A stretch of 64,000 nucleotides of DNA from Symploca sp. SIO3C6 (GTDB lineage Bacteria > Cyanobacteriota > Cyanobacteriia > Cyanobacteriales > Coleofasciculaceae). Below, piece after piece: positions 201 to 18,966 of the stretch; the first letter of the stretch is position 1; each line of letters begins with the position of its first letter. The stretch spans positions 1-64,000 of the forward strand of contig JAAHHJ010000025.1 of NCBI GenBank assembly GCA_010692425.1, in the 5' to 3' direction. The position numbers and the translations under genes were made by a program. The notes under the pieces were generated by a model. It saw only the letters and a program-made list of their open reading frames with translations, had not been told where the DNA came from and made no database searches.

Positions 201-1758
201 GCAAATACAACTACCCGAGCCAGAGCAACCCGAGCAAATACAAAAACCCGAGCAACCACCATCTGAGCCAATACTAGATACTACCGAGTCAATACCACCC
301 GAGATATCATCTGAGTCACCAGTATCTGAGTCACCAGTATCTGAGTCACCAGTATCTGAGTCACCAGTGTCTGAGTCGCCAGTATCTGAGTCACCAGTAT
401 CTGAGTCACCAGCCTCTGAGCCAACCGAAACTACCTCTGCTACGGCTCAGGGTTTAGCCACTGAGGGAGAAGCTCAACCATCAGCAGAGGAAACTGAAAA
501 TAATAGCCCTATTGAAATTGAACGTTTCTTTATTGAAACTGAGGAACAATTTACGCGAGAGTATGAATCATATTTAGGACTTGAAGAAACTCAAATCGTT
601 TCTATCAATCAAGCCCGTGATGTCCTCAGGCAGGTTGAAGGGCTTCCTGGCATGAAATCAGCACTGATTTATGCCCGATTTGTATCACCAGAAGGAGAAC
701 AAGAGGAAACATCCGATAAGGAAAATCATGAACTCGAATTGCTAGTAGTAACATCCTCAGAACAACCAATTCGCAAGAAAACTGGTATTAAACGCAAACA
801 AGTTCTCAAAGTTGCTAGGGAATTTAGAAGTACTGTCACTAACCGTGTCAATATTGGTGGTTATATCTCATCGAGTAAGCAACTACGCAAATTGTTAGTG
901 GAACCGATGGAGGGTATACTGCAACAGCGAGGCATTCAAAACCTGATATTTTCCATGGATGGAGGCTTACGCTCTGTGGCTGTTGCCGCCCTCTTCGATG
1001 GAGAACAATTCCTTATTGAGCAATATAGCATTAGCCTTATTCCCAGTCTCAGTCTCACCAATACTAGATACAGAGATATTAAAGACTCCCGAGTTTTGGC
1101 AATGGGTGCTGAGAAATTTACTGATAAAAGGCATAAGTCTTTACCAGCAGTGCCCTTGGAGTTATCAATGATTACCGAGCAATTTTGGCAGGGTAAATCC
1201 TTCATTGATGATGACTTTACTCGCAACAATCTCCAATACCAACGTAGAGCGCAGCCTTTTGAGATTATTCACCTGGCAACCCATGCTGATTTCCGCCCAG
1301 GTACTCCCAATAACTCCTATATTCAGTTGTGGGACACTAAACTCACCCTCAACGAATTGCCAAATATGAGTTGGAATAGACCAAAGGTAGATTTATTGGT
1401 ATTGAGTGCTTGCCGCACTGCCTTAGGAAATGAAGAGGCGGAATTGGGCTTTTCTGGATTGGCAGTTAAAGCCGGGGTGAAGTCCTCAATGGGGAGCTTG
1501 TGGTATGTCAGTGATGAAGCCACACTGGGACTAATGGCAAAATTCTACCAGCAGTTGAACAGTACTGGCCTCAAAGCTGAAGCGATTAGAAAGGCACAGT
1601 TAGCAATGCTTAATGGAGAAGTCAAGCTAAATAATGGTCAGTTGAGTATAGATGATGTAACCCTTACCTTGCCCCCAGAAATATCACAACCAGGAAAAAG
1701 ACAGATGAGACATCCCTACTATTGGGCTGGTTTTACACTAGTTGGTAATCCTTGGTAA
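1..1758 (+). CDS. CHAT-domain protease-like protein, 5' end outside window
   Basis: The frame is open from base 1, so the N-terminus lies left of the window; the GTG at 367 is only an internal codon. The visible 585 residues begin with a low-complexity stalk: about 6.5 copies of the decapeptide TVVENPDNDT, a Pro/Glu/Gln-rich stretch, then seven SPVSE pentapeptides. A caspase-like CHAT domain follows. Its probable catalytic His is in HLATHA (codon at 1282) and its Cys in LSACRTA (codon at 1411), with the typical GFSGLAVKAGVKSSMGSLW segment after it. CHAT proteins are clan CD cysteine peptidases, often signalling or conflict effectors. Substrate and upstream domains are unknown. The stalk probably acts as a spacer and varies in length by slippage (inference). 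Confidence 0.85.
   Translation, partial: TVVENPDNDTTVVENPDNDTTVVENPDNDTTVVENPDNDTTVVENPDNDTTVAENPDNDTTVAENPEQIQLPEPEQPEQIQKPEQPPSEPILDTTESIPPEISSESPVSESPVSESPVSESPVSESPVSESPVSESPASEPTETTSATAQGLATEGEAQPSAEETENNSPIEIERFFIETEEQFTREYESYLGLEETQIVSINQARDVLRQVEGLPGMKSALIYARFVSPEGEQEETSDKENHELELLVVTSSEQPIRKKTGIKRKQVLKVAREFRSTVTNRVNIGGYISSSKQLRKLLVEPMEGILQQRGIQNLIFSMDGGLRSVAVAALFDGEQFLIEQYSISLIPSLSLTNTRYRDIKDSRVLAMGAEKFTDKRHKSLPAVPLELSMITEQFWQGKSFIDDDFTRNNLQYQRRAQPFEIIHLATHADFRPGTPNNSYIQLWDTKLTLNELPNMSWNRPKVDLLVLSACRTALGNEEAELGFSGLAVKAGVKSSMGSLWYVSDEATLGLMAKFYQQLNSTGLKAEAIRKAQLAMLNGEVKLNNGQLSIDDVTLTLPPEISQPGKRQMRHPYYWAGFTLVGNPW
316..420 (+). repeat. 15-bp in-frame tandem repeat (SPVSE)
   Basis: Seven 15-bp units, consensus TCACCAGTATCTGAG, encode SPVSE pentapeptides between the decapeptide repeats and the CHAT domain. 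Near-identity between units suggests recent expansion. Confidence 0.9.
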
Positions 1759-1762
1759 TGTT

Positions 1763-1978
1763 CATAGTTGATTGTTGATTGTTCATTATTGAATGTTCAT
1801 AGTTGATTGTTAATTGTTCATTGGGTTTGTATTCGATAGTTGTGGAATACAAACCCAATGAACCATGAACCATGAGCTATGAACTATGAACCATGAACCA
1901 TGAACCATGAACCATGAGCTATGAACTATGAACCATGAACCATGAACCATGAATCATCAACTATGAACTATGAACACT
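1763..1978. repeat. Heptamer arrays flanking a 19-bp-stem hairpin
   Basis: The spacer after the CHAT gene is one composite element. In the centre is a perfect 19-bp inverted repeat (1816-1834 and 1845-1863, core CATTGGGTTTGTATTC) with a 10-base loop. To the right run heptamers of the type TGAACCA/TGAACTA/TGAGCTA. To the left run related heptamers on the opposite strand (TTGTTCA, TAGTTGA). A related, decayed copy lies at 10916-11160. Confidence 0.85.
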
Positions 1979-2029
1979 CTAGCGTTAGAATACTAGCTCT
2001 GGGGTAGTCAAAGGTGGAGCTTTAATTAT

Positions 2030-2584
2030 TTGGAGCAACTATTACGTATATCCAGAATTATTGATACTCTCAATGAGTGGGTTGGTCGCTTAATTTATTG
2101 GTTAGTACTGTTGATGGTGCTAATCGGTGTCTGGAATGTAGCTGGGCGTTACCTAGGGCGTTCAATTGGTCAAAATTTGACTTCTAATGCTTTTCTTGAG
2201 AGTCAGTGGTATTTATTCGATTTAGTGTTTCTTTTGGGTAGCGCTTACGCCCTTAAGCATAATGAACATGTACGGGTGGATATTTTTCAGAGAAAGTTTA
2301 GTCCTAAGTGGCGAGCAATGGCTAATTTGATTGGAACTTTATTGTTTCTAATTCCCTTCTGCTTGATGGTAATTTATTTCTCTTGGGAAACTATCCTCAA
2401 TTCCTGGAATATTCGGGAAATTTCGCCAGATCCTGGGGGCTTACCCCGTTACCCAATTAAGTCGATAATCGTTGTTAGTTTTGTGCTGTTGATTCTGCAA
2501 GGTATCTCGGAGGCAATCAAAAATTTGGCAATTTTCAGAGGTTGCATAGCGCCTCAGGAGGAGCCCCATGACTCTAGCCTATGA
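2030..2584 (+). CDS. dctQ: TRAP transporter small permease (DctQ family)
   Basis: The 184-residue protein has four predicted membrane segments, a conserved ESQWYLFDLVFLLGSAYALKHNEHVRVDI segment near residue 70, and a short polar C-terminus. This fits the 4-TM small subunit of tripartite ATP-independent periplasmic transporters. It overlaps the large subunit by 17 bp, so the two are translationally coupled. The start is a TTG with a GGTGGAG stretch upstream, so the exact N-terminus is uncertain. No periplasmic binding protein (DctP) gene lies within the window. Related cyanobacterial TRAP systems take up glutamate or other organic acids with sodium; the substrate here cannot be read from sequence. 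Confidence 0.88.
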   Translation: MEQLLRISRIIDTLNEWVGRLIYWLVLLMVLIGVWNVAGRYLGRSIGQNLTSNAFLESQWYLFDLVFLLGSAYALKHNEHVRVDIFQRKFSPKWRAMANLIGTLLFLIPFCLMVIYFSWETILNSWNIREISPDPGGLPRYPIKSIIVVSFVLLILQGISEAIKNLAIFRGCIAPQEEPHDSSL

Positions 2585-3905
2585 ATGGTTAGGCCCTGCG
2601 ATGTTTGCTGGGGCTTTAGTTTTGCTATCTCTGGGCTATCCAGTTGCCTTCTCTTTGGGGGGAGTGGCGATTTTATTTGCCATCTTTGGTTCAATTTTAG
2701 GTGTATTTGACCCAATTTTATTCTCGGCAATGCCTCTGCGGATTTTTGCCATCATGTCGAACTATACACTGTTGGCAATCCCATACTTCATTTTCATGGG
2801 CTCAATGCTGGAAAAATCCGGAATTGCTGAGCGACTTTTGGAAACGATGGGGATTCTGTTTGGGCGGATGCGGGGCGGTTTGGCTCTGGCAGTGGTGATT
2901 GTTGGGGCATTGCTGGCTGCTTCTACTGGTGTGGTGGCGGCGACAGTGGTGGCAATGGGGCTAATTTCTTTGCCAGTAATGTTGCGCTACGGCTACAATA
3001 AAGAGTTAGCTACTGGTGTAATTGCCGCATCAGGAACCCTTGGTCAAATTATTCCACCCAGTGTGGTGCTGGTGGTATTAGCGGATCAATTAGGTATGCC
3101 TGTGGGGGATCTGTTTATAGGTTCTGTGATTCCAGGTTTGATGATGGCTGGGGCTTTTGCTATTCACGTTATTGTTGTGGCATTGCTTAAACCAGAGGCA
3201 GCACCAGCATTACCGATTGAGGTTTGCAATATTGGTGGCAAAGCTCTGGCAATCCGCTTACTGGAGTCAGTACTGCCGCCACTATTGTTAATTATTTTAG
3301 TACTGGGCAGTATCTTTTTTGGAATTGCGACACCAACGGAAGCAGGGGCTGTGGGTAGTTTGGGAGCAATGTTACTTGCTGCTGTCAATCGTCGCTTGAA
3401 TTGGGCATCTCTGAAGAGGGTGTGTGATGCCACGCTACGGATTACCTCTATGGTAATGTTTATTTTACTAGGTTCGACAGCATTTAGCTTGGTATTTCGA
3501 GGTCTAGAGGGCGATCGCCTGATGGAAAAAGTCCTTTTAAATTTACCAGGGGGTGCTGTGGGTTTCCTGGTGGTAAGTATGTTAACTATCTTTTTATTAG
3601 GCTTTTTCATTGACTTTTTTGAAATCGCTTTTATTGTCGTGCCTTTATTTAAACCAGTTGCCGAGCAATTAGGACTTGATCTCGTTTGGTATGGTGTTAT
3701 TGTCGGGGCTAATCTTCAGGCATCTTTTCTAACACCACCTTTTGGCTTTGCTCTTTTCTACTTGCGCGGTGTTGCTCCGCCAGAGGTAAAAACGACGGAT
3801 ATTTATCGCGGTGCGATTCCTTTTATTCTTTTACAGTTACTGGTTTTGGCGCTAATTATTACTTTCCCTGGCTTGGTGAGTTTGTTGCCGTCTTTGATGG
3901 AGTAA
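2568..3905 (+). CDS. dctM: TRAP transporter large permease (DctM family)
   Basis: The 445-residue, strongly hydrophobic protein has about 11-12 membrane segments. It carries family signatures such as SGTLGQIIPPSVVLVVLADQ near residue 155 and ATPTEAGAVGSLGAMLLA near residue 260. DctM is the ion-coupled translocation channel of TRAP transporters. The ATG at 2568 follows a strong AGGAGG site located inside the end of dctQ. The length is normal for the family. The stop codon runs directly into a heptamer repeat array. Confidence 0.92.
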   Translation: MTLAYEWLGPAMFAGALVLLSLGYPVAFSLGGVAILFAIFGSILGVFDPILFSAMPLRIFAIMSNYTLLAIPYFIFMGSMLEKSGIAERLLETMGILFGRMRGGLALAVVIVGALLAASTGVVAATVVAMGLISLPVMLRYGYNKELATGVIAASGTLGQIIPPSVVLVVLADQLGMPVGDLFIGSVIPGLMMAGAFAIHVIVVALLKPEAAPALPIEVCNIGGKALAIRLLESVLPPLLLIILVLGSIFFGIATPTEAGAVGSLGAMLLAAVNRRLNWASLKRVCDATLRITSMVMFILLGSTAFSLVFRGLEGDRLMEKVLLNLPGGAVGFLVVSMLTIFLLGFFIDFFEIAFIVVPLFKPVAEQLGLDLVWYGVIVGANLQASFLTPPFGFALFYLRGVAPPEVKTTDIYRGAIPFILLQLLVLALIITFPGLVSLLPSLME

Positions 3906-4136
3906 TCAGCAATAAGTAATAAGTAATAAGTAATAAGTAATAAGTGATAAGTGATAAGTAATAAGTGATAAGTAATAAGTGATAAGTAATAAGTAATAAG
4001 TGATAAGTGATAAGTGATAAGTGATAAGTGATAAGTAATAAGTAATAAGTAATCAGTAATAAGTAATCAGTAATAAGTAATAAGTAATCAGTAATAAGTA
4101 ATAAGTAATCAGTAATAAGTGATAAGTGATAAGTGA
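3906..4136. repeat. TAATAAG/TGATAAG heptamer array
   Basis: More than 30 tandem 7-bp units (TAATAAG, TGATAAG, TAATCAG variants) fill the spacer between dctM and the deiminase gene, beginning at the dctM stop. The forward units hold stop codons, while the reverse strand is open and gives a spurious repetitive ORF that is not a gene. The rest of the spacer, to 4289, shows nothing recognisable. Smaller arrays of the same family lie at 10308-10342 and 44225-44270. Confidence 0.95.
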
Positions 4137-4289
4137 CAACAAGAACATTTATTGCTTGGTTGGGTAGAAGTCCTTGTGGCAAATATTTCAGTAATCGATA
4201 TTAACAGTATTAAAGATTATGAAGATGTGGTGAGGAGTTTCTGTGGGTAGGGCAAACTGAAGGAAAAATGTGTATTTAAAAACTAGCTG

Positions 4290-6299
4290 ATGAGACAACT
4301 CCTAGATGTTACTCCTATTGCTACTGAGTCTAGTGACGCTACTTCTGCATCGGCTCTACAAAGGCGAACCTATGAGGAAGTTTTGGTCATGGGGCAACCA
4401 ATGCCTTTGGCTTTGTTAAGGCTAGCACCGTCTCAAGCGGTATCTGTGCGCTTAGATGTTCAAGGTGAAGTTGAAGTATCTGCTTTGGAAACTAAGCAAT
4501 TAGTTACTCTGGGAGTTTCTTTGCCTTTAACACAAATTCCAGAGAGGGTTTATCTATTAGCACGAACCTTCAGTGATGAACTTAGGGATCGAGTACTTGA
4601 GGTTACTTTTTTAAATGTAAATAATCGAGAGATTACTAGTTATAAACTACTTTTAACTGTACTTCAAATCTGTCTGGATGTGGATGCTAATCGAGATGGT
4701 ATTGTAGATGAAGATAATCCACATAAAGCTGATTGGAAATGGGGAACAGATGGTTATGGTGCTATTTTATTAGTAAATAGTGACCAGGATATCGATTATT
4801 CGGATGATAAACAGGATTTAGATGATTATCGAATTAATGGGTTGCTTGATTTCAAGGATTTTAGTTTTCTAGTTATTCGCAGAATCGGTCCAAGAGATTT
4901 GCCTTCTGGGTGTGAATTACGTTTATCAGTTAATAGAGAAACTTCTAGGCGTATTAGAATTTTTGATGAACTTGATCGCAGTAGTGGACGTGAGTTAATT
5001 GGGCCGGGGAGAAGAGATGCCACAATTAGAGATACTGAGCAGGATTTAGTTTTAGCAGTTGAAGGACTACATTATCCGGATCGAGATTTTGATGGTTTGG
5101 TAAAAATTGCTCTAACTTTAAGTTGCGAGCATGAACAGGTTTACACAGACCAAGTTATGTTTAGGGTAGCTCCCTGGATTATGACTCCTAATAATCTAGC
5201 TCCGAAAACGGTTTATATTTGTCGTCTGGAAGACCAATCTAATCGAAAACTTATTGAGGAACTCAGAAAGATTGTAGGACAAGCTGAGGCACAATTAGAG
5301 GTTGTACCACCCAGTTCTCATCAAGGCGATCGCTGGATGCAAGATGAGATAGAAATTGGCTATACTCAAGCGCCTGGAAAGTTGATGTATGTGGTACTGG
5401 ATTCACCGCGAAATCGAGGCTTAGATGAATTTCCAGAAGAAAGATTGCTTGGCCCAAATTTCGGTTGGGTAACTAGAGAAAGCCGAGAAAGAGCTAATAA
5501 ATTAGATTCTTTTGGCAATTTAGAAGTGAGTCCGCCTGTGAGAGTAAATGGTGTTGATTATCCCCTAGGGAGAATTATTTTTGGCGGTACAAGACCAGAA
5601 ATTGCTGAGGATCGCCGTCGAATGATGAAGGTAGTCCGAGATTTCTTATATGCTCAGCAAATCCAAGCTCCAATTGAAGTCTTTTCTGATTGGCTCAGTG
5701 TTGGTCATATAGATGAGTTTATGACTTTTGTCCCAGCCTCTACAGCTAAAGGATTTAAGTTGATTCTTACCAGTGCTGATCAAAGTTATGAAATTCTCAA
5801 ACAGCTGGAATCAGATGGTTATGGTAAGGCAATTTTAAGGGAAGGAAAGTATTTTTCCAGAGGAACAAAGGCAGATATTACTGTTTCAGAAGTTCTGGAT
5901 GATAAAACCCTGGCTCGACAGAATAGGCGTTTTCAAGAATTTATCAATTGGAATCGAGAGGTTTTGAAGCAGGAATTGGGTTTAACGGAAGGAGATATTA
6001 TCGATTTGCCTGCATTGTTTGAGGAAGATAGGGAAGGTAGAGCGGAAACCTTTTCTCCCGATATGGTTAATATGATTGTTCTAGGGAAACATTTGGTTAT
6101 TCCTAAGCCCTATGGACCGATGATAAAGGGAGAATGCCAATTTGAAGCTTATGTTAAACGAGTTTTAGAGCCTCTTGGTTTAATTTGCCACTTTCTTGAT
6201 GATTGGGAACCCTATTTTCGGGGTAGGGGAGAGGTGCATTGTGGTACTAATACTCGTAGGGTGCCTTTTGCACAAAATTGGTGGGATGCTTTTGTCTAG
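4290..6299 (+). CDS. Protein-arginine deiminase, three-domain PADI type
   Basis: The 669 residues match vertebrate PADs (about 663) in length and domain order. An N-terminal beta domain (about 1-120) comes first, then the PAD middle domain with the Asp-rich calcium segment DVDANRDGIVDEDN (130-143), then the catalytic pentein domain from about 300. The active-site set is complete: Asp352 in WMQDE, His473 and Asp475 in VGHIDEF, Cys651 in EVHCGTN. The substrate-binding SPRNRG (372-377) and the LDSFGNLEVSPP strand are also present. The expected reaction is calcium-dependent conversion of peptidyl-arginine to citrulline. It has no signal peptide, so it is probably cytoplasmic. No Shine-Dalgarno site is obvious before this ATG, and the N-terminus could shift slightly. 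Neighbours give no clue to substrate. Confidence 0.95.
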   Translation: MRQLLDVTPIATESSDATSASALQRRTYEEVLVMGQPMPLALLRLAPSQAVSVRLDVQGEVEVSALETKQLVTLGVSLPLTQIPERVYLLARTFSDELRDRVLEVTFLNVNNREITSYKLLLTVLQICLDVDANRDGIVDEDNPHKADWKWGTDGYGAILLVNSDQDIDYSDDKQDLDDYRINGLLDFKDFSFLVIRRIGPRDLPSGCELRLSVNRETSRRIRIFDELDRSSGRELIGPGRRDATIRDTEQDLVLAVEGLHYPDRDFDGLVKIALTLSCEHEQVYTDQVMFRVAPWIMTPNNLAPKTVYICRLEDQSNRKLIEELRKIVGQAEAQLEVVPPSSHQGDRWMQDEIEIGYTQAPGKLMYVVLDSPRNRGLDEFPEERLLGPNFGWVTRESRERANKLDSFGNLEVSPPVRVNGVDYPLGRIIFGGTRPEIAEDRRRMMKVVRDFLYAQQIQAPIEVFSDWLSVGHIDEFMTFVPASTAKGFKLILTSADQSYEILKQLESDGYGKAILREGKYFSRGTKADITVSEVLDDKTLARQNRRFQEFINWNREVLKQELGLTEGDIIDLPALFEEDREGRAETFSPDMVNMIVLGKHLVIPKPYGPMIKGECQFEAYVKRVLEPLGLICHFLDDWEPYFRGRGEVHCGTNTRRVPFAQNWWDAFV

Positions 6300-6498
6300 T
6301 TATACTGATGTTTGTTACAGATTATGGGGAGTGGGAGAGGGGGAGATATCTGCAACCCTAATTTAGGAAATATATTGGGTTTCGTTGCCTCAAGCCAACC
6401 TACTCTTAACAAAACTTAATATTTCTCCAAAAAATCAAGCGATCCGCCTGACGGCGGAAAAAAAGGAAAAAGGGCAAGAGGGAAAAAAGGGCAAAGGG

Positions 6499-8259
6499 CT
6501 ATGTAGTCCTGGCACCAACACAGACGACACGAAAACCGAAATAGTAGTTGATCCCGTCGCGCCCGAGAGCGTCGTTGCGAGACGCACAACGGCAGAAAGA
6601 AGGATTGAAGGACCATGAACCACCGCGCATAACTTGATAACGATTATCATTATCATTAGTCTCTTCTACCCAAGCAGTGCCATCATTGGGCGCTCCTTTG
6701 TAGTTTCCATGCCAATCATCCGCACACCACTCCCACACATTTCCATGCATATCGTATAAGCCAAAAGCATTAGGAAAAAATTTTCCGACTTGGGTAGTTT
6801 GGTTTCTATATTCTCCCTTTGGCTCCGAAGCATAGGTAGAGCTGGCACGATAATTTGCTAATTTGTCAGAGATAGTTTCGCCAAAGTGAAATGGAGTTGT
6901 AGTCAAGGCACGGCAAGCATATTCCCATTCGGCTTCGCTGGGCAGACGATATTTTCTTCCTGTCTGTTTCGATAATCTTTGGCAAAATTCTACTGCATCG
7001 TACCAAGAGACTCGCTCTACAGGATGGCTATCGCTGTCTTGACTATTTTGGAAATAGGCAGGGTTAGGTTTAAGCTCACGTTCAACTTTCAAATATGCAC
7101 GGGATGCAATTGCTCTCCACTGTGCCTGAGTTACTGGATATTTGCCCATAAAGAATGGTTGAACTGTTACTTCGTGTTCAGGTTTTTCCCTATTAAATCT
7201 CTGCCAATTAAATTTTTGAATAAGCTTTTCTATTTCCTTATCCTCTGTTCCCATCAGGAATTTACCGCCGGGAATAGAAATCATTTCCAGGCTAACACCA
7301 TTACCCAAATCTTCTGTAAAAAACTTGGCTTGTTGGTTAGACTCGCGTTTAATTGTCTCCCCCTTTGCATCCACCGTTACAGTTTCAAACTTAAATGTCG
7401 ATAGCGGCAATTCCAATTCTTTGGATTCTTCTTTGGTTGGGGGAATGTTTAATAAATTTAACCACTCTTGTATTGATTGAGGGCGCTCTTGGGGTTCCAG
7501 TGCCATCCCTTTGAGGATTGCTTGATTAGTGCGATCGCTAATACTAGGATTAAGCTGAGATGGTGGTACTAATTCCTCATTAAACAACTTTCGACCCAAA
7601 GAAGCAGTAGCACGCTCACCTGTCACAGCATAATAAAGAGATGCTGCTAAGGAATACACGTCAACTGCTTTCTGGCGACTACCTTTACCCACCTGCTCGT
7701 AAGGAGCAAAACTACGGTTGCCAGCCATGTCAGTTTGAGTGCTAGTGGCGGGGCTAATACCCTTAGCAATACCAAAATCAATCAGTACAGCTTCTTCCGG
7801 ATTTCGCATCATAATGTTGAGAGGCGTAGCATCCCGATGCACCAACTCAGTTTGATGCATGAAGTTTAAGGCATCTCCAATTTGGCGAATAACTTTTATC
7901 GCCTGAGTTTCTGTTAATGCACCTTGCCGCTTAATAAAGTCGTATAAATTCTCCCCTGGAATATACTCCATTACCAGACAGGGGCTTTCAGCTTCTGTAA
8001 AAAAATCAATGACTTGAACAATATGAGGATGGGGTTTTTTACAAAGCCGTTTGAGTTTCTCCCCTTCCTTGTGAAAGAGCCTTAAATATTCGCCATATTC
8101 GGGGTCATCTTTGAGATGATCTAAAATAGTCTTGATTACCAAATGCTTGTTATTTTCGAGGTGACGAACTTTATAGGTAATGCCAAAGCCACCTGAACCG
8201 AGTTTTCTTTCAATAACATAGGGGCTGGACTGTAACCGATACCCTGGTGTCCATGACAT
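6499..8259 (-). CDS. Ser/Thr protein kinase fused to FGE-sulfatase domain with variable-region-like 3' end
   Basis: 586 residues. The kinase domain spans about 10-275: glycine loop GSGGFG (21-26), Lys43, catalytic loop HRDATPLN (141-148) and DFG (161-163). The usual Lys of HRDxKPxN is Thr145. From about residue 310 comes an FGE-sulfatase (formylglycine-generating-enzyme-like, C-lectin-type fold) domain with IPGGKFLMG, PVTQAQW, LPSEAEWEYACR and GNVWEWCADD. It ends in RGGSW...CRCASR...GFRVV. No membrane segment is seen. The last 35 codons (6520-6627) resemble a DGR variable region. The same C-terminal module ends the CHAT-STAND protein at 15895-18933. The kinase probably transmits a signal sensed by the FGE domain (inference). 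The gene is convergent with the deiminase gene. Confidence 0.9.
   Translation of the reverse strand: MSWTPGYRLQSSPYVIERKLGSGGFGITYKVRHLENNKHLVIKTILDHLKDDPEYGEYLRLFHKEGEKLKRLCKKPHPHIVQVIDFFTEAESPCLVMEYIPGENLYDFIKRQGALTETQAIKVIRQIGDALNFMHQTELVHRDATPLNIMMRNPEEAVLIDFGIAKGISPATSTQTDMAGNRSFAPYEQVGKGSRQKAVDVYSLAASLYYAVTGERATASLGRKLFNEELVPPSQLNPSISDRTNQAILKGMALEPQERPQSIQEWLNLLNIPPTKEESKELELPLSTFKFETVTVDAKGETIKRESNQQAKFFTEDLGNGVSLEMISIPGGKFLMGTEDKEIEKLIQKFNWQRFNREKPEHEVTVQPFFMGKYPVTQAQWRAIASRAYLKVERELKPNPAYFQNSQDSDSHPVERVSWYDAVEFCQRLSKQTGRKYRLPSEAEWEYACRALTTTPFHFGETISDKLANYRASSTYASEPKGEYRNQTTQVGKFFPNAFGLYDMHGNVWEWCADDWHGNYKGAPNDGTAWVEETNDNDNRYQVMRGGSWSFNPSFCRCASRNDALGRDGINYYFGFRVVCVGARTT
6520..6627 (-). 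other. Candidate DGR variable region (VR1)
   Basis: This is the 3' end of the kinase-FGE gene, from the RGGSW codons to GFRVV. Codon-by-codon comparison with the matching segment at 18802-18912 shows changes concentrated at first and second positions (TCC/GGC, TTC/GAT, TCT/TAT, AAC/GGC, ATC/CTC), while third positions stay C or T. This is the expected outcome of adenine-directed mutagenesis of AAY codons. No template repeat or reverse transcriptase was found in the window. Confidence 0.55.
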
Positions 8260-8695
8260 GATGACCTAGCTTTCCTTCTTTCTAGATTGCCGATGATGCA
8301 ACCTGCGAATAAATTAGCTAATTACCTGCCGCGAAGGTTTCTTGGAATTCCAAGTAGTATTCTTCTAGCTTCTAGTACTAGCTTTTAGGCAGTTATACAG
8401 TCAACCTCCTAATTGATGCTGTTGATATCTTAGAAGAAGTCTTGCCGTGTAGCTCATGCACTCAGGATAACAGCCTGATTTAACAAATGCCAAGGGAACA
8501 AGTGTACACTTTTAGCAGCAGCATGAAAGCATGGCATTAATCGATCGCATTATTTCCACTGGACAAACTACGCCACCATAATATCTATAACTTATACCAA
8601 ATTCTTGAATACCTGCTATACATCAATCTCCGTGTCTCCGTGTCTCCGTGTCTCCGTGTCATCAGCATCCGTAGCAAACATAAATAAAACCGATA
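8260..8695. other. Intergenic region with an 8-bp repeat
   Basis: 436 bp lie between the kinase gene start and the cyclase gene end. The only structure I see is a run of about four TCCGTGTC octamers at 8627-8660. The kinase promoter presumably lies in the 200 bp next to 8259. No ORF or RNA gene was recognised. Confidence 0.6.
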
Positions 8696-9547
8696 TTAAG
8701 GGATAATGGCGAAAACTCTAGCAGGAAAACCCGAACCCTTGAAGGGCTTAGGAAAAGTCACGATCGCAATTGCACCGTATTCTGGCACCATGTCAAGGTT
8801 TGCCAGCAACTCAATCTGATACTTATCCTGTGATAGGATATAGGTCTCAAGGGAATAATCGCCCCTGCTAGTAGCAATACCTGGATCTGTGTCAGTGGTT
8901 TCATGACCAGAGGCAGTAATATTGCGCTCTTCATATAAGTACTTCAAAACTTCAGCACTCCATCCTGGATAATGGGCGATGCCGTTTTGATCTTCGTTGC
9001 GCATTTGGGAAGCATTCGGCCAACGTTTGTACCAATCAGTGCGCATGGCAGCAAATGCCCCCTCTGGAACTTTACCGTATTTCTCCTCCCAAACACGTAC
9101 ATCCTCAATTTGGATTTGATAATCAGGGTTTTGTGCTACTTTCTCACTAACATCCAATATCACCAGTGGTAGTATCATTTCCGTGACAGGGATATCGTCT
9201 TGAAAGCGCTTGCCCTCGACAAAGTGCGCTGGTGGATCAACATGGGTCCCCCACTGCCCAGCATGACAATAGCGGTGTGCTAAAAATCCAGAACCCCTGG
9301 TGCCAATCATCTCATCGTAGTGGTAAACTGTGGTTCGTTCCTCATCCTCAAAACCAGGCCAATGGGGGATACCGGGATGAAAGGCGTGAGTTAAATCGAC
9401 AAATTCGCGCGACTTGAGTTGGGCTAGAGTTCTCCATAGACTGGGAGTATTGTTAGTTTGGGCAGCAAGCGGTGCTATCACACCCATGGTGATAAACATT
9501 GCAAAGGTCAACGCCGATCTTTGCCACATAGTTTTAACCACTAGCAT
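8696..9547 (-). CDS. Secreted cyclase-family metal-dependent hydrolase
   Basis: The 283-residue protein has an N-terminal signal peptide (hydrophobic run about 12-28, cleavage near PLAAQ). It carries the cyclase/kynurenine-formamidase metal motif GTHVDPPAHF (100-109: His102, Asp104, His108), preceded by DLTHAFHPGIPHWPG (51-65). A further conserved His lies in ASGHETTDTDPG. Members of this family hydrolyse amide or ester bonds using a divalent metal, and only some are true kynurenine formamidases. The signal peptide argues for a periplasmic role rather than tryptophan catabolism. The gene stands alone with no operon partner. The start is an ATG with no strong ribosome-binding site. Confidence 0.85.
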   Translation of the reverse strand: MLVVKTMWQRSALTFAMFITMGVIAPLAAQTNNTPSLWRTLAQLKSREFVDLTHAFHPGIPHWPGFEDEERTTVYHYDEMIGTRGSGFLAHRYCHAGQWGTHVDPPAHFVEGKRFQDDIPVTEMILPLVILDVSEKVAQNPDYQIQIEDVRVWEEKYGKVPEGAFAAMRTDWYKRWPNASQMRNEDQNGIAHYPGWSAEVLKYLYEERNITASGHETTDTDPGIATSRGDYSLETYILSQDKYQIELLANLDMVPEYGAIAIVTFPKPFKGSGFPARVFAIIP

Positions 9548-9572
9548 AGTGAGTTAAGTATTTTACTTGACT

Positions 9573-9655
9573 AAGTCGTACAAATTTTATCCTGAAATAT
9601 ATTCCATCACCCAGCAGTGGTTTTGAGCTTCTGTAAAAAAGTCAGCGATCGCACT
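9573..9655 (-). pseudogene. Remnant of a Ser/Thr kinase gene
   Basis: Read on the minus strand, this spacer segment encodes IADFFTEAQNHCWVMEYISG, a stop, then NLYD. It aligns with VIDFFTEAESPCLVMEYIPGENLYD of the intact kinase at 6499-8259. About 80 bp of kinase N-lobe sequence, interrupted by a stop, therefore sits upstream of the cyclase gene. It is probably the trace of a duplicated and deleted paralogue. Confidence 0.75.
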
Positions 9656-9797
9656 AACGAAATTCCTCATATGTAAACTAAACCACATCTAATCTACAGT
9701 CATCTTGCGTTACTGTATCTTTGTGAAGTGGGCATCCCTGCCCGCAATCATCTGCAAATTAAATGTGGACAAGCTTATTTTACTAGCTTAGGAAGCG

Positions 9798-10268
9798 CTA
9801 TATACAGCCCCTAAAACCTCCATTAACATCAAATTGCCCATCTAAATCAAATTCCCCATTTATTTTCTCTCCCAATGGGGTGTTAAGTTGTCTACTAGTG
9901 CTTCCCGCACCCTTTAGAGGATCACTAACACCATTTAGAGAATTTTCTAAAAAAGTAGAACCAAACCCCTCAGGTTCAAGTTTTCTTTCCTGTTCAAAAA
10001 AAGTTGGTGCAGGAGGGCGGCAGTTTTCCCTTTCCTCTGGTGTTAAATTTTGTGGCTCGCGACAGTTTTCATCTCTGCTAGTTTGAGAATTAATATTGTT
10101 AATATCACTGTCTCCCTCTTTTCTCTCCTGCTGCCCTTGCTCCTGAAGCTCCCGGAATTCCTCTGCTTGAGCAACCATTCCTAAAACTGCATTGAGACCA
10201 TAAAGACAGATTCCAAAGAGTAATGCTTTTGGTAGTAATGGTGAGTAGTACTTAGCTGAATTGAACAT
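9798..10268 (-). CDS. Uncharacterised secreted or membrane-anchored protein
   Basis: 156 residues. There is an N-terminal hydrophobic segment (about 12-34) with AQAEE after it, compatible with signal-peptide cleavage. A polar Glu/Gln/Asn-rich region follows with two cysteines in related contexts (DENCREPQNLTPEERENCRPP), which could form a disulfide. The C-terminus is Gly/Asp-rich (GEFDLDGQFDVNGGFRGCI). I recognise no family. The ATG at 10268 has an AAGGA site upstream. A TAATAAG heptamer array lies just upstream, in the probable promoter region. Confidence 0.6.
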   Translation of the reverse strand: MFNSAKYYSPLLPKALLFGICLYGLNAVLGMVAQAEEFRELQEQGQQERKEGDSDINNINSQTSRDENCREPQNLTPEERENCRPPAPTFFEQERKLEPEGFGSTFLENSLNGVSDPLKGAGSTSRQLNTPLGEKINGEFDLDGQFDVNGGFRGCI

Positions 10269-10307
10269 AATCTTATGTTCCTTTTAGAAACAGAAAGTAG
10301 TAATAAG

Positions 10308-10342
10308 TAATAAGTAATAAGTAATAAGTAATAAGTAATAAG
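10308..10342. repeat. Short TAATAAG heptamer array
   Basis: About five tandem TAATAAG units lie upstream of the secreted-protein gene that starts at 10268. They belong to the family of the large array at 3906-4136. Confidence 0.9.
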
Positions 10343-10465
10343 TCATTAATATGTCTGATTGATTGTCAATACAAACAATTTGTATGTATAGGTTAGATTG
10401 AGGCCATGAAATTCAACATATACAAGTATTTGATTAGTCTGAGAAATTCTATTAAATCCCTCTGT

Positions 10466-10915
10466 TTAAATATCTTCATAGAAGCGAGACTGATTACTAT
10501 CTTCTATCGACCAATCTGCGTTTTCACCACCAATAAATAAGCTCTCAATTTCCACATACTCTTTAGAAAGCTGCTGAAGAGAATTAATTAAAACATCAAG
10601 TGCGATCGCGTCGCTAGTGCCTAAATCAAACCAACAGCGTCCCCATGTTCCCAGATAGTCAAACTCACCCTTATTATGCATCAATGCCATAAGGTTAGTA
10701 TCTTCTACTTGCTCTCTATACTCAATGTAACTGAGGTCAACGCCTACTTCCTGAACCTGGAGGTTTTCAGCATCAAATCCCCCTAGTTTGCCTAGTAAAA
10801 ACCAGGAATTGAAAACCTCTTCAATATACTCTTTTTCCATAGGCGAAGGAACAGTACTGAACTTTAGCCAAATCCACAAATCGAAAGGGTTAAACTCGCG
10901 AAATTCTATTTTCAT
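10466..10915 (-). CDS. DUF3531 family protein
   Basis: The 149-residue protein begins MKIEFREFNPFDLWIWLKF and contains EEVFNSWFLLGKLGGFDAENLQVQE, typical of the cyanobacterial and plastid DUF3531 family (function unknown). The longer open frame upstream to 11224 is a translated heptamer array (repeats of HGSWFMA) and is not part of the gene; I place the start at 10915. It is soluble and acidic. Heptamer/hairpin repeats separate it from the aldo/keto reductase gene upstream. Confidence 0.8.
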   Translation of the reverse strand: MKIEFREFNPFDLWIWLKFSTVPSPMEKEYIEEVFNSWFLLGKLGGFDAENLQVQEVGVDLSYIEYREQVEDTNLMALMHNKGEFDYLGTWGRCWFDLGTSDAIALDVLINSLQQLSKEYVEIESLFIGGENADWSIEDSNQSRFYEDI

Positions 10916-11160
10916 TGTTGATCGTTGATTGTTAATTGTAAAAGACTGTTCATAGTTTATTGTTGATTGTTCATTGGGTTTGTATTCGACAGTTATAGTA
11001 TACAAACACGATGAGCTATGAACCATGAACCATGAGCTATGAACCATGAACCATGAGCCATGAGCCATGAACCATGAGCCATGAGCCATGAACCATGAGC
11101 CATGAGCCATGAACCATGAACCATGAGCCATGAACCATGAACCATGAACCATGAACAATA
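10916..11160. repeat. Second heptamer/hairpin composite element (decayed)
   Basis: Same architecture as 1763-1978. Heptamers related to TTGATTG/TTCATAG lie on the left, then an imperfect hairpin (about 10969-11015, same TTGGGTTTGTATTC arm, about four mismatches on the other arm), then about 20 TGAACCA/TGAGCCA heptamers up to 11160. It fills the whole spacer between two co-oriented genes. Confidence 0.85.
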
Positions 11161-11165
11161 AACCT

Positions 11166-12143
11166 TTAACTCCAGGCACGGAAAAAGGTATTATCTTTCC
11201 AACTAGCAGCAGTACGCTGTTCAATATCTGCTAAAGCTTTCTGAGATAGTGGTTCAAAAGCTCTTGCTACTTCCACATTTGACTCTAGCTGGGCAATGTT
11301 TTCAGCGGCAACAATAGCACAATGAACCCCTGCTTGTGAGAGAGTATATCCCAGTGCTTGGTGCATGCCATCGAGTACTCCTGGTTTGAACAAACGCCCA
11401 TAGGCTGGTACTTTCATGGCGATTACACCTACCCCTTGCTGCTGTGCTACGGGCAGCACTTTAGGTATAAAGGGGCGTGGGTGGTGTTTATCAGCAGCAT
11501 TGATCGGAATCAGTGTGGTGTCAAACTCATAGCGGCGTAACCCCTCAACAATGACATCTGGTTCATGGTGTCCAGTAATACCAGTCAAGCGCAGGATGTT
11601 CTGTTGCTTGGCTTCTTCCATAGCTTGAATTGCACCATCTTTACTGAAGATTCTATCTAATTCTTGTTCAAAAGAAACATGGTGTAGCTGCCATAGATCA
11701 AGATAGTCTGTGTTAAGGCGTTTGAGCGATCGCTCTAAATCTCGCCAAGCCCCGTCGCGGTCGCGCGCACCAGTCTTAGTTGCTAAAAATACCTGATTTC
11801 GGTAAGATGGCAGTACTCTGCCAAAATGCTGCTCAGAGGCTCCGTAACTAGCTGCTGTATCAAAATAGCGAATGCCCAAGGATAGGGCACGTTCAGTCAT
11901 TGCTATGGCTTGTTGTTCGCGGTTGGTCTTATCTACAGGCGTTTTGCCAGCACCACCCAAACCTAAAATTGGGACACTAATACCAGTGCGACCTAACTCT
12001 CGTTCCAGTATAGCTGTCTTTACTGGTAATTGCTCTTGTGCAACAGGAGTGCTATGGCTTTTGGTAGCCCCACAGCCAACAATGCCAGCGGCAACAGTAG
12101 CACTAGCTATTAAAAAATTGCGTCTTGTGGTTTGTCGGGTCAT
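11166..12143 (-). CDS. Aldo/keto reductase with Tat and lipobox-like N-terminus
   Basis: About 325 residues. The N-terminus carries a twin-arginine motif (TRRNFLIA) followed by a hydrophobic run ending AGIVGCG, which resembles a lipobox. The protein is probably exported folded and may be lipid-anchored. The aldo/keto reductase barrel follows, with catalytic candidates Asp and Tyr in FDTAASYG, Lys in ATKTG and His in LWQLHHV. The family reduces carbonyls with NADPH, and the natural substrate is unknown. The first codon of the longest frame is TTG; I prefer the ATG two codons on. Export of a nicotinamide-dependent enzyme is unusual but known for Tat-type oxidoreductases. Confidence 0.85.
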   Translation of the reverse strand: MTRQTTRRNFLIASATVAAGIVGCGATKSHSTPVAQEQLPVKTAILERELGRTGISVPILGLGGAGKTPVDKTNREQQAIAMTERALSLGIRYFDTAASYGASEQHFGRVLPSYRNQVFLATKTGARDRDGAWRDLERSLKRLNTDYLDLWQLHHVSFEQELDRIFSKDGAIQAMEEAKQQNILRLTGITGHHEPDVIVEGLRRYEFDTTLIPINAADKHHPRPFIPKVLPVAQQQGVGVIAMKVPAYGRLFKPGVLDGMHQALGYTLSQAGVHCAIVAAENIAQLESNVEVARAFEPLSQKALADIEQRTAASWKDNTFFRAWS

Positions 12144-12224: not shown

Positions 12225-13265
12225 TTACAACTGAGAATCAATCATAACCTTCAAGCGAATTATTTGTTCTCCTGTCTCGTCTAGCGGCACTTCTATAACT
12301 TCCCCAGAGAGTGTTTCTATACAATTAAGAAGCGATCGCAAATGGGGAGTACTAGCACCAGTATCTACATACAAGCGGTCTGATAAACTACTAAGACGTT
12401 TCCAGGTAGTGAAGAGTTTACCAACAGTCTGTTCTAGTACAGATGCCTGTTTAACCAAATCGGCAGCAGTGTTTAAACAATCGAGTCTTAGGGCTTCATC
12501 TAGGGCTAATTCCATATCCAAAGATGACTCCTGAAGTGCCTGCACCTGGGCGGCTGCGTCGAGGTACTTGGCTAAATAACGGGCATCCGATGTCACCTGC
12601 TTAACTGTATCAACATCGGGACTAGCTGCCACTTCCTGTTGTATCGCACTGAGGTGGGTTTCTGGCAACTTCTCCATTTCTTTAACTAGCGGCGCTAGGT
12701 AACGCGCTGGCATGGTACCACCTGCTGCCTTTTCTTTTACCTCATCTGGTAGCAATTGGGAAGACATTGCCGTCCATTCATCAGAGAGTTGCTTGACCTC
12801 GCGACGGGTGATGCGATCGCCTTTTTGTGCTGCATCTGTGACCAATTGTTGCACTTCTGGGGAAGATTTGGCGGTTTCAACAAATGCCCGTTTGCTAAAA
12901 TTATTAATAGAGTTAGAGTCCAGTTTTCCTTCAGCTAAGAGAGTATCGGCACTATTGGCAAGCTCAATTAAGGAGTAAGCGTAACTTTTGCTAAGTTCTC
13001 GACTTTTAAGCCAGTTCAAAAAACCACTACCCCTGCCATCACCGCCTTTTTTCTCCCTGTCTCTGACTACGCGCAGGATTCGCCCCCGCCAGATTTCTGT
13101 TTGCAGATCAAAGCGATCGCAAACCAACCAAGCATGATCCACCACCTGCTGAAAATCATACTCTAAAATTTCCTCATCCTCTGGATCAGGCAGATCGAAA
13201 TTCAGGTCAACTGGTTGTTCCAGGACAGCAGCAAGGTCGGCGGTAGATTGCGGAATTTCAACCAT
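12225..13265 (-). CDS. Uncharacterised alpha-helical protein with helix-turn-helix-like segment
   Basis: The 346-residue soluble protein has no family I can name. An acidic N-terminus (about 1-40) precedes FLNWLKSRELSKSYAYSLIELANSADTLL (about 85-113), which resembles the helix-turn-helix of DUF3102/ParB-type proteins. The rest is mostly helical and probably coiled-coil, with a beta-rich end (EVIEVPLDETGEQIIRLKVMID). A DNA-associated or partition-like role is possible but is inference. It stands alone between the aldo/keto reductase and fdxB. GCGATCGC octamers occur inside it. Confidence 0.65.
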   Translation of the reverse strand: MVEIPQSTADLAAVLEQPVDLNFDLPDPEDEEILEYDFQQVVDHAWLVCDRFDLQTEIWRGRILRVVRDREKKGGDGRGSGFLNWLKSRELSKSYAYSLIELANSADTLLAEGKLDSNSINNFSKRAFVETAKSSPEVQQLVTDAAQKGDRITRREVKQLSDEWTAMSSQLLPDEVKEKAAGGTMPARYLAPLVKEMEKLPETHLSAIQQEVAASPDVDTVKQVTSDARYLAKYLDAAAQVQALQESSLDMELALDEALRLDCLNTAADLVKQASVLEQTVGKLFTTWKRLSSLSDRLYVDTGASTPHLRSLLNCIETLSGEVIEVPLDETGEQIIRLKVMIDSQL

Positions 13266-14552: not shown

Positions 14553-14576
14553 AAGAGTTAGCTACTATATTAAAGG

Positions 14577-15559: not shown

Positions 15560-15913
15560 ATGAAAGAAATTCCCCTTTGTCGTATAGTAATTTCATCACC
15601 ACTTCCCAGCAGTGACCTAGAGTTGTTAGAAATCTCGCTAGGAATGAGTTCGATTGCAGTGCAGAAGTCGCCAAGTCGATTCATGGGTGTAGATGATCTA
15701 GTGGTGGTGGCGACATTGCTGGGAGGGGCAGCAGCAACAGCCAATTTGATCGAGTGTGGAATCAAAGTGGCTAAGGTAATCAATAATTGGCGACGGCAAC
15801 TGCGAGAAAAAGGGATAGAACTAGAAGGGAGTTTAGAAAATCCCAAATATCTTCCTCTAGACCTAAGTAAGGCTACTGATGAGGAGATTGAGGCGTGGTT
15901 GTCTCAAAAGTAG
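15560..15913 (+). CDS. Small EACC1-like partner of the CHAT-STAND protein
   Basis: 117 residues. A beta-strand-like N-terminus (CRIVISSPLPSSDLELLEISLG) is followed by a small-residue hydrophobic helix (VVVATLLGGAAATANLIECG, about 48-67). A Arg/Lys helix and a short C-terminal tail (LDLSKATDEEIEAWLSQ) complete it. This layout resembles effector-associated constant component 1 (EACC1) proteins that accompany effectors in bacterial conflict systems; the match is by architecture only. It overlaps the next gene by 19 bp, so the two are translationally coupled and probably work together. The ATG at 15560 follows GAGGTG. Confidence 0.6.
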   Translation: MKEIPLCRIVISSPLPSSDLELLEISLGMSSIAVQKSPSRFMGVDDLVVVATLLGGAAATANLIECGIKVAKVINNWRRQLREKGIELEGSLENPKYLPLDLSKATDEEIEAWLSQK

Positions 15914-18900
15914 CTCAAAAAGTTCCCCGTAGTCCAGGGGTAGAAGAAGTAACAGCACAAGATAATACCTTCAGTAATCAAATTGTGGTCTTGTTTTCTG
16001 CCCCTCTACTCACTGAAGATTTATTACCAGTAGAGAATTTATCGATTAAGACAGAAATTGAGGCTCTTACTTCAGTGTTAGAGGAGATATCTCAACCAAT
16101 AGCAGTGGAGATAGTGGTGAAAGTAGCTACCTCACAGTCTCTACAAGATGTCTTGTCTCATCGGGTCAAACCACTGATTATTCATTTTATTGGTCATGGC
16201 ATGAGAGAGGGAGATAACACAGCCCTAGTCTTAGAAGATGAGGTGGGAATTACTCGTTCTTTTACTGAAGAAGAGTTGAAAATCGCCCTCTCAAATCATC
16301 AGCAAGCACCCTGTCAATTAGCATTATTGAATGCCTGTCATTCCGAGAAGTTAGCTCAAGCTTTTGTCAAAGCTGGAGTGTCACATGTAATTGCCGTTAA
16401 CGCCGAAGATAAAATTTTAGATCTGGCAGCCAGATGTTTTTCTCGCCGACTTTATCAAGCCTTATTCAATCAAGATTCAGTGGCTGATAGTTTTTTATTG
16501 AGTCGTAATGCAGTTAAGCTTGATGATCAATTAAAAAAACTGTTTAACTCTCAGACTTTTCAACAAGGAGTTAATTTCGAGGAAGCCTTCAAATTTAAAT
16601 TACTACCCCAAACTAACCATAAGCAACCGCTAATTATAGAACCAGCCGATACTCACAGTATTATTTATCCCCAGTGGTCAAATACTAATATTCCCCGTGA
16701 AAATCCTAACTTTGTAGGACGCAGACAGGAAATACATCAGGTAATTAAAGTACTGGTAGAGTCGGATCAACGTTGTCTGGCTCTCCATGGCATGGGAGGA
16801 ATCGGTAAAACTGCCTTAGCTTATGCTATTGGTCAATGGTTACATGAGCGCTCCCGCTATAAACATGGAGTGTGGTTTATTAGTTTGCGCGATACGGATT
16901 CTGTCGGAACTCTGATTACCAAAATTAAACAAGAGCTGGAATTAAGTACTTTTGCTTTAGAAAGAGAGTTAAGAGATAGTCGAGTATTTTTGATTCTCGA
17001 TGATTTGGATAAATTGATTGAAAAAGAATCCGATCAATTAATTGAGCTATTAAACTCGATGTTAGAACAATGTCCGAATTTAAGACTATTGTTAACTTGC
17101 CGTGATTCTCTAGTAAGAGACCTTGTTTATTGCCAGCAACAAGAGGTTTGCAGCATGGCAGCCTCAGAAACGAGACAGATATTTATAAAATATGCTCCCT
17201 CCCAATCCCAATGGGGAAATAATCATGACTTGATGGCAGATTTTAATCTCTTAGTTAAGTTTCTTGATGGTTATCCCTTAGCGATTAAACTGGCAGCATC
17301 TTATATGGTAGAAACTCAATCGACTCTGAAGATGCTGTGTGAAGATTTGGAAATTGAACCACTGGAAGTTCTGGAGACTTATTCTCCTCAACAAAGAAAA
17401 GAAAGAAGTCTGCGGATAACTTTAGAGCGTTCCTTTGAGATGTTATCGGTAGAAGCTCAAGATATATTTCCTTTATTGGCTTTCTTTCCCAGTGGCTTAA
17501 GTCGAGATTTAGCTAGGGCAATTTGGGGTAGAAGTGGGAATAGGGCTTTGTTGGAATTGTTTAAGTTTTCCATGGCAGAAAAATCTCTCACTGCCTCTGA
17601 TTGGAGAGTAAATTTACCTGAACCTGCTCGAATTTACGCCCAAAGTAAATTGCAGAACAAAAGAGGAATTGAATATCTGGCTCCCCAAGCTTTGGATTTT
17701 TATCAGGGCAATTTCTGTGACCAAGTTATCAAACTTTTTGATAATGGAGATGCTCATCAGGGGCAGCAGTTACTTGTGCAGGAAAACTCAAATTTAATCT
17801 ACTTTCTTGAATGGGGTTATGACCATGAATTGAGTTCAGACCAAATTTGTCGCAGTGCGAGAATTACAGCTTCATTAAGTCCTTATTGGCATTGGCTTGA
17901 ACCTAGCCAAGACCCTTTGGCTAGACTGGACTTGGCTTTAGCCGCAGCCCAAAGAAATCAGGATCAAGAAGGAGAAAATTTAGTTAGAAATGCGATTGCT
18001 GCTTTGGCTTCTAGAGAAGAATTTAAAGAGATTCAATCTTTAGTACAAGAAAGTGATAAGCTAAACTCCTTTGAGTTTACAAGCGTCACTGTCAATCGTC
18101 GCGGTGAAGAAATCAAACGAGAAGCAAAACAAGCTAAATACTTCAGAGAAATTCTCCCTAATGATGTCCCTCTTGAGATGGTTTACATCCCTGGTGGTGA
18201 ATTCATGATGGGTTCTCCAGAAAAAGAAGGCTACGATTACGATGACGAAAAACCGCAACATCTAGTCACTGTCTCACCCTTCTTCATGGGCAAGTATCCC
18301 ATAACCCAAGCGCAATGGAAAGCAATCGCATCTCGCACCGATTTGAAAGTCGAACGGGATCTTGATTCCAATCCTGCTTATTTCCGAAATAGGCAAGACA
18401 GCGCTCATCGTCCTGTGGAGAAAGTTTCCTGGTACGATGCGGTGGAGTTTTGCCTACGCCTATCGAGACATACAGGAGGAGAATACCGCCTGCCCAGTGA
18501 AGCTGAATGGGAATATGCTTGTCGTGCTGGTACGACGACACCATTTCACTTTGGAGAAACTATTTCTATTCAATTGGCTAACTATAATACTGACTACACC
18601 TATGAGAAAGGTGTTAAAGGAGAATATCTCAAACAAACCACGCCAGTAGAATACTTCCAAGAGGCAAATAAATTTGGACTGTGTGAGATGCACGGAAATG
18701 TTTGGGAATGGTGTGAGGACGACTGGCATGAACACTATGAAGGCGCACCTACCGATGGAAGTGCTTGGCTATCAGATAACAATGGTACTACAAAAGTAGT
18801 ACGCGGTGGTTCTTGCGGCGATCATCCTTATCTCTGTCGTTGTGCCTCTCGCGGCTACGACGATCCCGGCCTCGACCTCAGCAACGGTGTCGGGCTGCGG

Positions 18901-18933
18901 GTTGTGTGCGCCTTAGGGAGAATTCTTCCATAG
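15895..18933 (+). CDS. CHAT - STAND (NB-ARC) - FGE-sulfatase fusion, variable-region-like 3' end
   Basis: 1012 residues from a GTG with an upstream GAGGAG site. The CHAT-type domain (about 25-210) has His101 in IIHFIGHG and Cys148 in LLNACHS. The NB-ARC/STAND ATPase (about 270-570) has FVGRRQEI, P-loop GMGGIGKT (299-306), Walker B VFLILDD (364-370), LLLTCRD and the GYPLAIKLAA motif. A helical linker follows, then the FGE-sulfatase/C-lectin-fold domain from about 723 (IPGGEFMMG, PITQAQW, LPSEAEWEYACRAG, GNVWEWCEDD), ending RGGSC...CRCASR...GLRVVC. In plan it is a STAND switch with a protease effector in front and a ligand-binding domain behind. The terminal domain is near-identical in layout to that of the kinase protein at 6499-8259. 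No target is known. Confidence 0.9.
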   Translation: MVVSKVAQKVPRSPGVEEVTAQDNTFSNQIVVLFSAPLLTEDLLPVENLSIKTEIEALTSVLEEISQPIAVEIVVKVATSQSLQDVLSHRVKPLIIHFIGHGMREGDNTALVLEDEVGITRSFTEEELKIALSNHQQAPCQLALLNACHSEKLAQAFVKAGVSHVIAVNAEDKILDLAARCFSRRLYQALFNQDSVADSFLLSRNAVKLDDQLKKLFNSQTFQQGVNFEEAFKFKLLPQTNHKQPLIIEPADTHSIIYPQWSNTNIPRENPNFVGRRQEIHQVIKVLVESDQRCLALHGMGGIGKTALAYAIGQWLHERSRYKHGVWFISLRDTDSVGTLITKIKQELELSTFALERELRDSRVFLILDDLDKLIEKESDQLIELLNSMLEQCPNLRLLLTCRDSLVRDLVYCQQQEVCSMAASETRQIFIKYAPSQSQWGNNHDLMADFNLLVKFLDGYPLAIKLAASYMVETQSTLKMLCEDLEIEPLEVLETYSPQQRKERSLRITLERSFEMLSVEAQDIFPLLAFFPSGLSRDLARAIWGRSGNRALLELFKFSMAEKSLTASDWRVNLPEPARIYAQSKLQNKRGIEYLAPQALDFYQGNFCDQVIKLFDNGDAHQGQQLLVQENSNLIYFLEWGYDHELSSDQICRSARITASLSPYWHWLEPSQDPLARLDLALAAAQRNQDQEGENLVRNAIAALASREEFKEIQSLVQESDKLNSFEFTSVTVNRRGEEIKREAKQAKYFREILPNDVPLEMVYIPGGEFMMGSPEKEGYDYDDEKPQHLVTVSPFFMGKYPITQAQWKAIASRTDLKVERDLDSNPAYFRNRQDSAHRPVEKVSWYDAVEFCLRLSRHTGGEYRLPSEAEWEYACRAGTTTPFHFGETISIQLANYNTDYTYEKGVKGEYLKQTTPVEYFQEANKFGLCEMHGNVWEWCEDDWHEHYEGAPTDGSAWLSDNNGTTKVVRGGSCGDHPYLCRCASRGYDDPGLDLSNGVGLRVVCALGRILP
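18802..18912 (+). other. Candidate DGR variable region (VR2)
   Basis: This is the 3' end of the CHAT-STAND-FGE gene. Fourteen consecutive codons from CRCASR onward all end in C or T (twelve in C), a GC-rich break from the AT-rich third positions of the rest of the gene. It aligns without gaps with VR1, differing chiefly at codon positions 1 and 2. It fits AAY-template mutagenic retrohoming. The template and reverse transcriptase are not in the window. Confidence 0.55.
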
Positions 18934-18966
18934 CCCTTTATCTCAGATTTTGCACCAATCTATTCA

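Follow-up and report, generated by a model that had tools for sequence, protein, structure and literature searches.

The window analysed here, positions 1 to 64,000 of the forward strand of contig JAAHHJ010000025.1 (contig C168) of the filamentous cyanobacterium Symploca sp. SIO3C6, contains two genes whose 3' ends are, we have very little doubt, true variable regions (VRs) of cyanobacterial diversity-generating retroelements (DGRs). The explanation towards which we lean, with some reserve, is that both genes are genuine remote targets of a DGR that once resided in this genome (G000; a draft of 7.49 Mb in 289 contigs, 96.95% complete) and has since decayed, its reverse transcriptase (RT) and template repeat (TR) having been lost and the repertoire of targets most likely being frozen. 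The features on which the argument turns are these.

6499..8259, minus strand: variable protein 1, with an N-terminal Ser/Thr kinase (PF00069, E 4.9e-40) and a C-terminal FGE/C-type-lectin domain (PF03781, E 2.4e-58).
6520..6627, minus strand: VR of protein 1, 36 codons from RGGS to GFRVVC, assigned to template lineage G1 by alignment with nine TRs and the other gene ends.
6484..6519, minus strand: end of gene 1 and adjoining 3' flank, AGGACT, stop and TAGCCCTTTGCCC, read as the VR end on the side of the initiation of mutagenic homing (IMH) site.
15895..18933, plus strand: variable protein 2, with CHAT (PF12770), NB-ARC/NACHT of the STAND type (PF00931, PF05729) and C-terminal FGE (PF03781) domains.
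18802..18909, plus strand: VR of protein 2, 36 codons from RGGS to GLRVVC, assigned to template lineage G2 by the same alignment of TRs and gene ends.
18910..18939, plus strand: end of gene 2, TAGCCCTTT at the stop, preceded by AGAATT instead of AGGACT (from comparison of VR ends).
Within the VRs: the constant segments TCGGTTTTCGTGTCGTCTG and GGGCTGCGGGTTGTGTGCG.

In both genes the VR lies 3'-terminally, in the part that encodes the FGE domain with its C-type-lectin fold; the window FGE domain matches TvpA (Treponema denticola variable protein 1, PDB 2y3c) in phmmer at E 2.5e-18. The comparison of the two window genes with each other is not significant, and therefore all paralogs of the genome were used. 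There are 23 FGE Pfam hits in the genome, and 15 FGE/C-type-lectin genes end in a VR-like segment. These 15 VRs were aligned with 16 gene ends of Symploca sp. SIO2E9 (G001, a metagenome-assembled genome and the sole genome of the same genus compared) and with nine real TRs from seven genomes of other families, each of which lies 24-120 bases from a DGR RT by coordinates; the accessory gene avd is also present at all three reference loci that were opened. One FGE gene (L015), having no VR-like end, was left out of the diversity counts. Adenine columns were defined as those with adenine in at least 75% of the nine TRs, which gives 24 columns that are not taken from a cognate TR. At these columns the diversity is 0.616 among the VRs of SIO3C6 and 0.681 among the gene ends of SIO2E9, whereas codon positions 1 and 2 outside the adenine columns have 0.03-0.14 (about 0.09), and a difference of this size was reached in none of 20,000 permutations. 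Third positions outside the adenine columns do still vary across lineages (diversity 0.353). Where the templates have an AAY codon, 125 of the 135 codons end in C or T, and none is a stop.

Copying from shared templates is supported, indirectly, by third positions. In 16 gene pairs that we picked ourselves, the non-adenine third positions of the VR were closer than those upstream in 12, which fits such copying. The clearest cases are L018a and L018b, which differ at 54% of upstream third positions and at only 2 of 35 in the VR, and L009 and gene 1, with 29% upstream and 0 of 35 in the VR. At least two and probably three template lineages can be recognised from the sequences, namely G1 (GFRVVCVGART), G2 (GLRVVCVVPRT) and G3 (GFRVVC.FGRT), and the two window genes fall into different ones.

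The first-pass annotation, made from the letters of the window alone, had both genes and their coordinates right, and the gapless alignment which it reported does extend over 36 codons from RGGS, whose codons begin at 6627 (minus) and 18802 (plus). Its description of this stretch as C-ending and GC-rich was also accurate (GC at third positions 0.58-0.61 vs 0.34-0.38 upstream; total GC 0.56-0.64 vs 0.43-0.45), and third bases are indeed kept C or T (pyrimidine in 86-89% vs 53-56% upstream). However, the differences between the two VRs are not concentrated at codon positions 1 and 2 as it had stated: at positions 1, 2 and 3 they number 15, 11 and 15 of 36, as against 52, 43 and 106 of 218 upstream, a contrast that gives p = 0.086 in Fisher's test. 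This contrast is weak because the two VRs probably come from two template lineages with differing constant third positions (15 of 35). The central proposal of that annotation, that both gene ends are DGR variable regions on remote targets, is borne out by the adenine columns and by the comparison of VR ends.

As for these ends, VRs beside intact DGRs carry AGGACT in three of four cases and CCCTTT after the stop in all four, while seven of nine TRs have AGYACT at the corresponding end. A VR end like that of gene 1 is thus also present at VRs beside intact DGRs, and TAGCCCTTTGCCCTTTTT occurs once in the window at up to two mismatches, with 0 expected. TAGCCCTTT follows 11 of 16 gene ends in SIO3C6 and 9 of 16 in SIO2E9, so the VR end appears to be kept in part of the gene set. 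The comparison of VR and TR ends (IMH and IMH*) was made with TRs of other families. An FGE target on another contig (C244, 15003-15899) has five in-frame stops, and its VR end is still readable. Downstream of VR 1 lies a small inverted repeat, listed here as a candidate hairpin.

6444..6457, minus strand: inverted repeat CCGCC GTCA GGCGG, from the sequence.

Its core (6445-6456) is the sole match in the window at up to one mismatch, where 0.74 are expected, so by itself it is not above chance.

The comparison with Symploca sp. SIO2E9 bears on how recent the diversification is. Positions 407-11837 of the window match its contig C69 and 12231-18910 its contig C78, so that proteins 1 and 2 each have a syntenic ortholog, on C69 and C78 respectively. 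In each ortholog pair 15 of the 24 adenine columns differ, whereas upstream positions 1 and 2 differ at 42 of 460 and 32 of 442 sites (p 1.1e-9 and 8.1e-11 against the adenine columns). A control pair of FGE-family orthologs (L021/L153; one pair only) has its last 42 codons conserved, with 1 of 84 positions 1 and 2 different; L022/L154 was left out of this control, as the frame taken from L154 is not an FGE gene. L015 was tried as the ortholog of L136 and of L153, and both pairings were rejected as not orthologous. Given the divergence of adenine columns between orthologs, diversification probably continued past the split from SIO2E9, and this seems to us a better account than an exchange of VRs. 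Among all 31 gene ends (465 pairs) the lowest adenine-column difference is 9 of 24 and no pair is near-identical, thus no recent copying of VRs from gene to gene is seen.

We then have to account for the mutator. The first-pass annotation had noted the absence of a retroelement in the window, and indeed contig C168 is free of RT matches. The eight RVT_1 hits of the genome lie on other contigs; all read as group II intron-type by their motifs (L007 also scanned with RVT_N), and no DGR RT with the GxxxSQ motif was found in the genome. A profile built from 12 DGR RTs gave six matches in it, all on the same group II intron-type genes; it also matched in seven other genomes, where the motif was looked up for some of the matches at most. 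A diverged DGR RT hidden among these hits was considered and rejected, since RVT_1 does detect a real DGR RT (6.8e-19), yet its hits here read as group II intron-type. As a positive control, a DGR RT query returned 15 close relatives in 13 of the 97 genomes searched, none of them in this family; the motif was checked in 13 of these relatives, and each has IGNL(T/S)SQ. In the 20 genomes of the family that were included no DGR RT was found, though 9 of them carry VR-type matches. In five family genomes the RTs closest to the DGR query were rejected as DGR RTs, for they carry QGAVISP and not GxxxSQ. These proteins of about 280-400 amino acids (L108, L112, L114, L115 and L117, in G012, G001, G010, G004 and G011), which also contain LVRYADDF, stand nearest to the DGR RT among the non-DGR RTs of the family.

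No TR matching the VRs was found in the SIO3C6 assembly, where blastn of both VRs returned FGE gene ends and short chance matches; in the other family genomes TRs were sought by a scan for VR matches, in which no more than 15 candidates of each genome were scored, and through the searches for RTs. A TR-like 3' piece, CGCAACAACAATATCGGTTTTCGTG, does lie at 6700-6718 (minus) of a contig of Leptolyngbyaceae cyanobacterium MO_188.B28 (L160), without a recognisable 5' half; this contig also bears two FGE-VR genes and may be a further broken DGR. The pattern may recur in a genome of another family (G042), which has seven VR-type matches and lacks any match in the range of DGR RTs.

What does remain in SIO3C6 is avd, in two fragments with no intact copy: one on C249 with an internal stop and a truncation, and a partial one on C274. 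On C249 the order is target, broken avd, second target, with no RT or TR between them and no RT match better than E 0.6 within the surrounding 20 kb. The counterpart of this locus in SIO2E9 was sought among 40 of 275 candidates, which yielded only an 88-base match. Among 19 family genomes searched for avd, four (SIO3C6, G017, G011 and G010) have a truncated avd behind a target, with differing break points. The break in G017 is about 50 bases short of the contig end, and its contig C695 has no RT match at E 0.05 or better. In G010 the sequence that follows residue 20 of avd on C150 matches RT weakly (E 0.025, 6-kb locus) and may be a piece of one, and a further weak match, of 47 residues, lies on C601 (E 0.004).

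Based on these observations, we propose the following scenario. The 3' ends of about 15 FGE/C-type-lectin genes scattered over the genome would have received adenine-mutated cDNA made from at least two, probably three, TRs, and this rewriting would have altered the presumed ligand-binding face of the encoded proteins, kinases and CHAT-STAND proteins among them. After that the DGR itself would have decayed, so that its remains at C249 are two targets with a broken avd between them, and RT and TR would have been lost by deletion, so that the window genes are orphan targets and the repertoire is static. DGR-type mutagenesis and copying into dispersed targets are supported by the data, while we infer that RT and TR are lost rather than not assembled, that the repertoire is frozen and that the variable face binds ligands. 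With regard to the first-pass annotation, this means that its claim of targets served in trans is unproven for the present day, because no DGR RT or TR was found in the assembly, only debris of avd. It had named two observations that would speak against its proposal. The first, a genome with neither a DGR RT nor a matching template, is what the assembly presents; the second, conservation of the variable codons between relatives, is not what we see between the two species.

Several observations weigh against our scenario. Three of the 16 gene pairs have VR third positions that differ more than those upstream, and in one pair they differ equally. The adenine columns derive from TRs of other families and not from a cognate TR. 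AGRACT is found at just 9 of 16 gene ends in SIO3C6 and 6 of 16 in SIO2E9. A species-specific template is not seen, since the non-adenine columns are no more similar among the gene ends of one species than across the two (for G1, 8.53, 7.33 and 8.88 of 74). Diversification after the split, with no RT in either assembly, needs recent separate losses or an RT that has not been seen. One assembly is a draft and the genus-mate a metagenome-assembled genome, and a plasmid could be missing. Finally, VR-type matches were present in just one (G015) of the five family genomes with the least fragmentation, so the other four are little informative on loss after the spread of targets.

The strongest rival, to which we give a substantial but minor share of our belief, is that diversification in trans goes on, driven by a DGR outside the draft assembly, on a plasmid or another element or in an assembly gap. 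It would account for the divergence of orthologous VRs after the species split and for the lack of near-identical VR pairs, as if they were being renewed. Possible carriers are on record: an RT of this clade, with 62-70% identity to the query (in one case over 72% of its length), is present on six cyanobacterial plasmids in PLSDB. Five of these regions were opened; annotated avd and FGE genes adjoin the RT in four (Anabaena sp. 90, Acaryochloris, Nostoc UHCC 0926 and Microcystis FD4), and in the fifth, a Fischerella plasmid, the neighbours of the RT are named hypothetical. When plasmids were searched by blastn with the VRs, that of gene 1 had VR-type matches (69-72%) in three records and that of gene 2 had none. 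The Thiohalocapsa report (PMC10907252) also describes activity in trans, as well as degenerate loci of which intact structural variants exist. On the other side stand the absence of a DGR RT from all 20 family genomes and the truncated avd genes, which show that real losses happened. By coordinates, the contigs run on beyond the 3' flanks of the VR genes; on the 5' side a contig end is near for two of them, the one on C79 and one on C244, hence a cassette is possible there for those two. In viral contigs the exact 19-base G1 constant segment is absent, and a pattern-based scan of them turned up no RT closer than 50% identity.

It is also conceivable, if rather doubtful in our opinion, that the family keeps and reshuffles large sensor repertoires made by DGRs after repeated chromosomal loss of RT and TR, and that these are re-diversified only when a mobile, plasmid-borne DGR passes. 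If this is true, the targets are resident and the mutator is itinerant.

We consider it improbable that the ortholog VRs diverged by gene conversion among static old VRs after the RT had been lost, a scheme which fits the loss but not activity after the split. Gene bodies and VR lineages are indeed uncoupled (third positions of L011 and L013 differ by 19% upstream and 43% in the VR), and the constant segments could support recombination, yet no donor-recipient pair was found, the closest of the 31 gene ends being those nine columns apart. To the remaining idea, that no DGR was ever involved and that this is a multicopy FGE family whose binding residues were shuffled or subject to strong diversifying selection, we attach next to no credence: the family size and the non-significant two-gene comparison would allow it, but the adenine-column and VR-end tests appear to contradict it already, as the variable columns coincide with TR adenines of other families, template AAY codons keep a C or T in third place, constant bases are mostly closer than upstream ones, the VR ends resemble those at intact DGRs and a broken avd adjoins a target.

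Beside the variable kinase gene, and directly adjoining it, the window encodes a protein-arginine deiminase (4290-6299, plus strand; PAD plus PAD_M, E 1.7e-158) that is 94% identical in SIO2E9. This protein family is best known from animals.

The interest of a decayed DGR with surviving targets, in our opinion, is that it shows a possible fate of DGR targets once the mutator is lost: many diversified signalling and conflict proteins are kept without an RT. Surveys that start from the RT overlook such genomes. The question raised is whether the repertoire is frozen or is supplied by a mobile DGR.

Among known systems, TvpA shares the FGE-type C-type-lectin domain with the window genes. Its host bears a DGR, unlike the genome of the window genes as assembled. 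Among the papers listed in our literature searches, which covered few subscription journals, none reported a DGR target family without an RT. Remote kinase-C-type-lectin targets of DGRs are known in cyanobacteria (Vallota-Eastman et al. 2020, PMC7517822), and they share with our genes the C-terminal C-type-lectin domain, the kinase or CHAT-like N-termini, the VR near the 3' end of the gene and the remote location; the difference is that the searches of SIO3C6 yielded neither RT nor TR, and that all that is left there is targets and fragments of avd. Degenerate and trans-acting DGR loci are described in Thiohalocapsa PB-PSB1 (Dore et al. 2024, PMC10907252), which likewise has incomplete loci with targets and STAND-FGE sensors. 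There, however, each class keeps one complete locus in the same genome, whereas none was found in SIO3C6 and a DGR RT in none of the family genomes.
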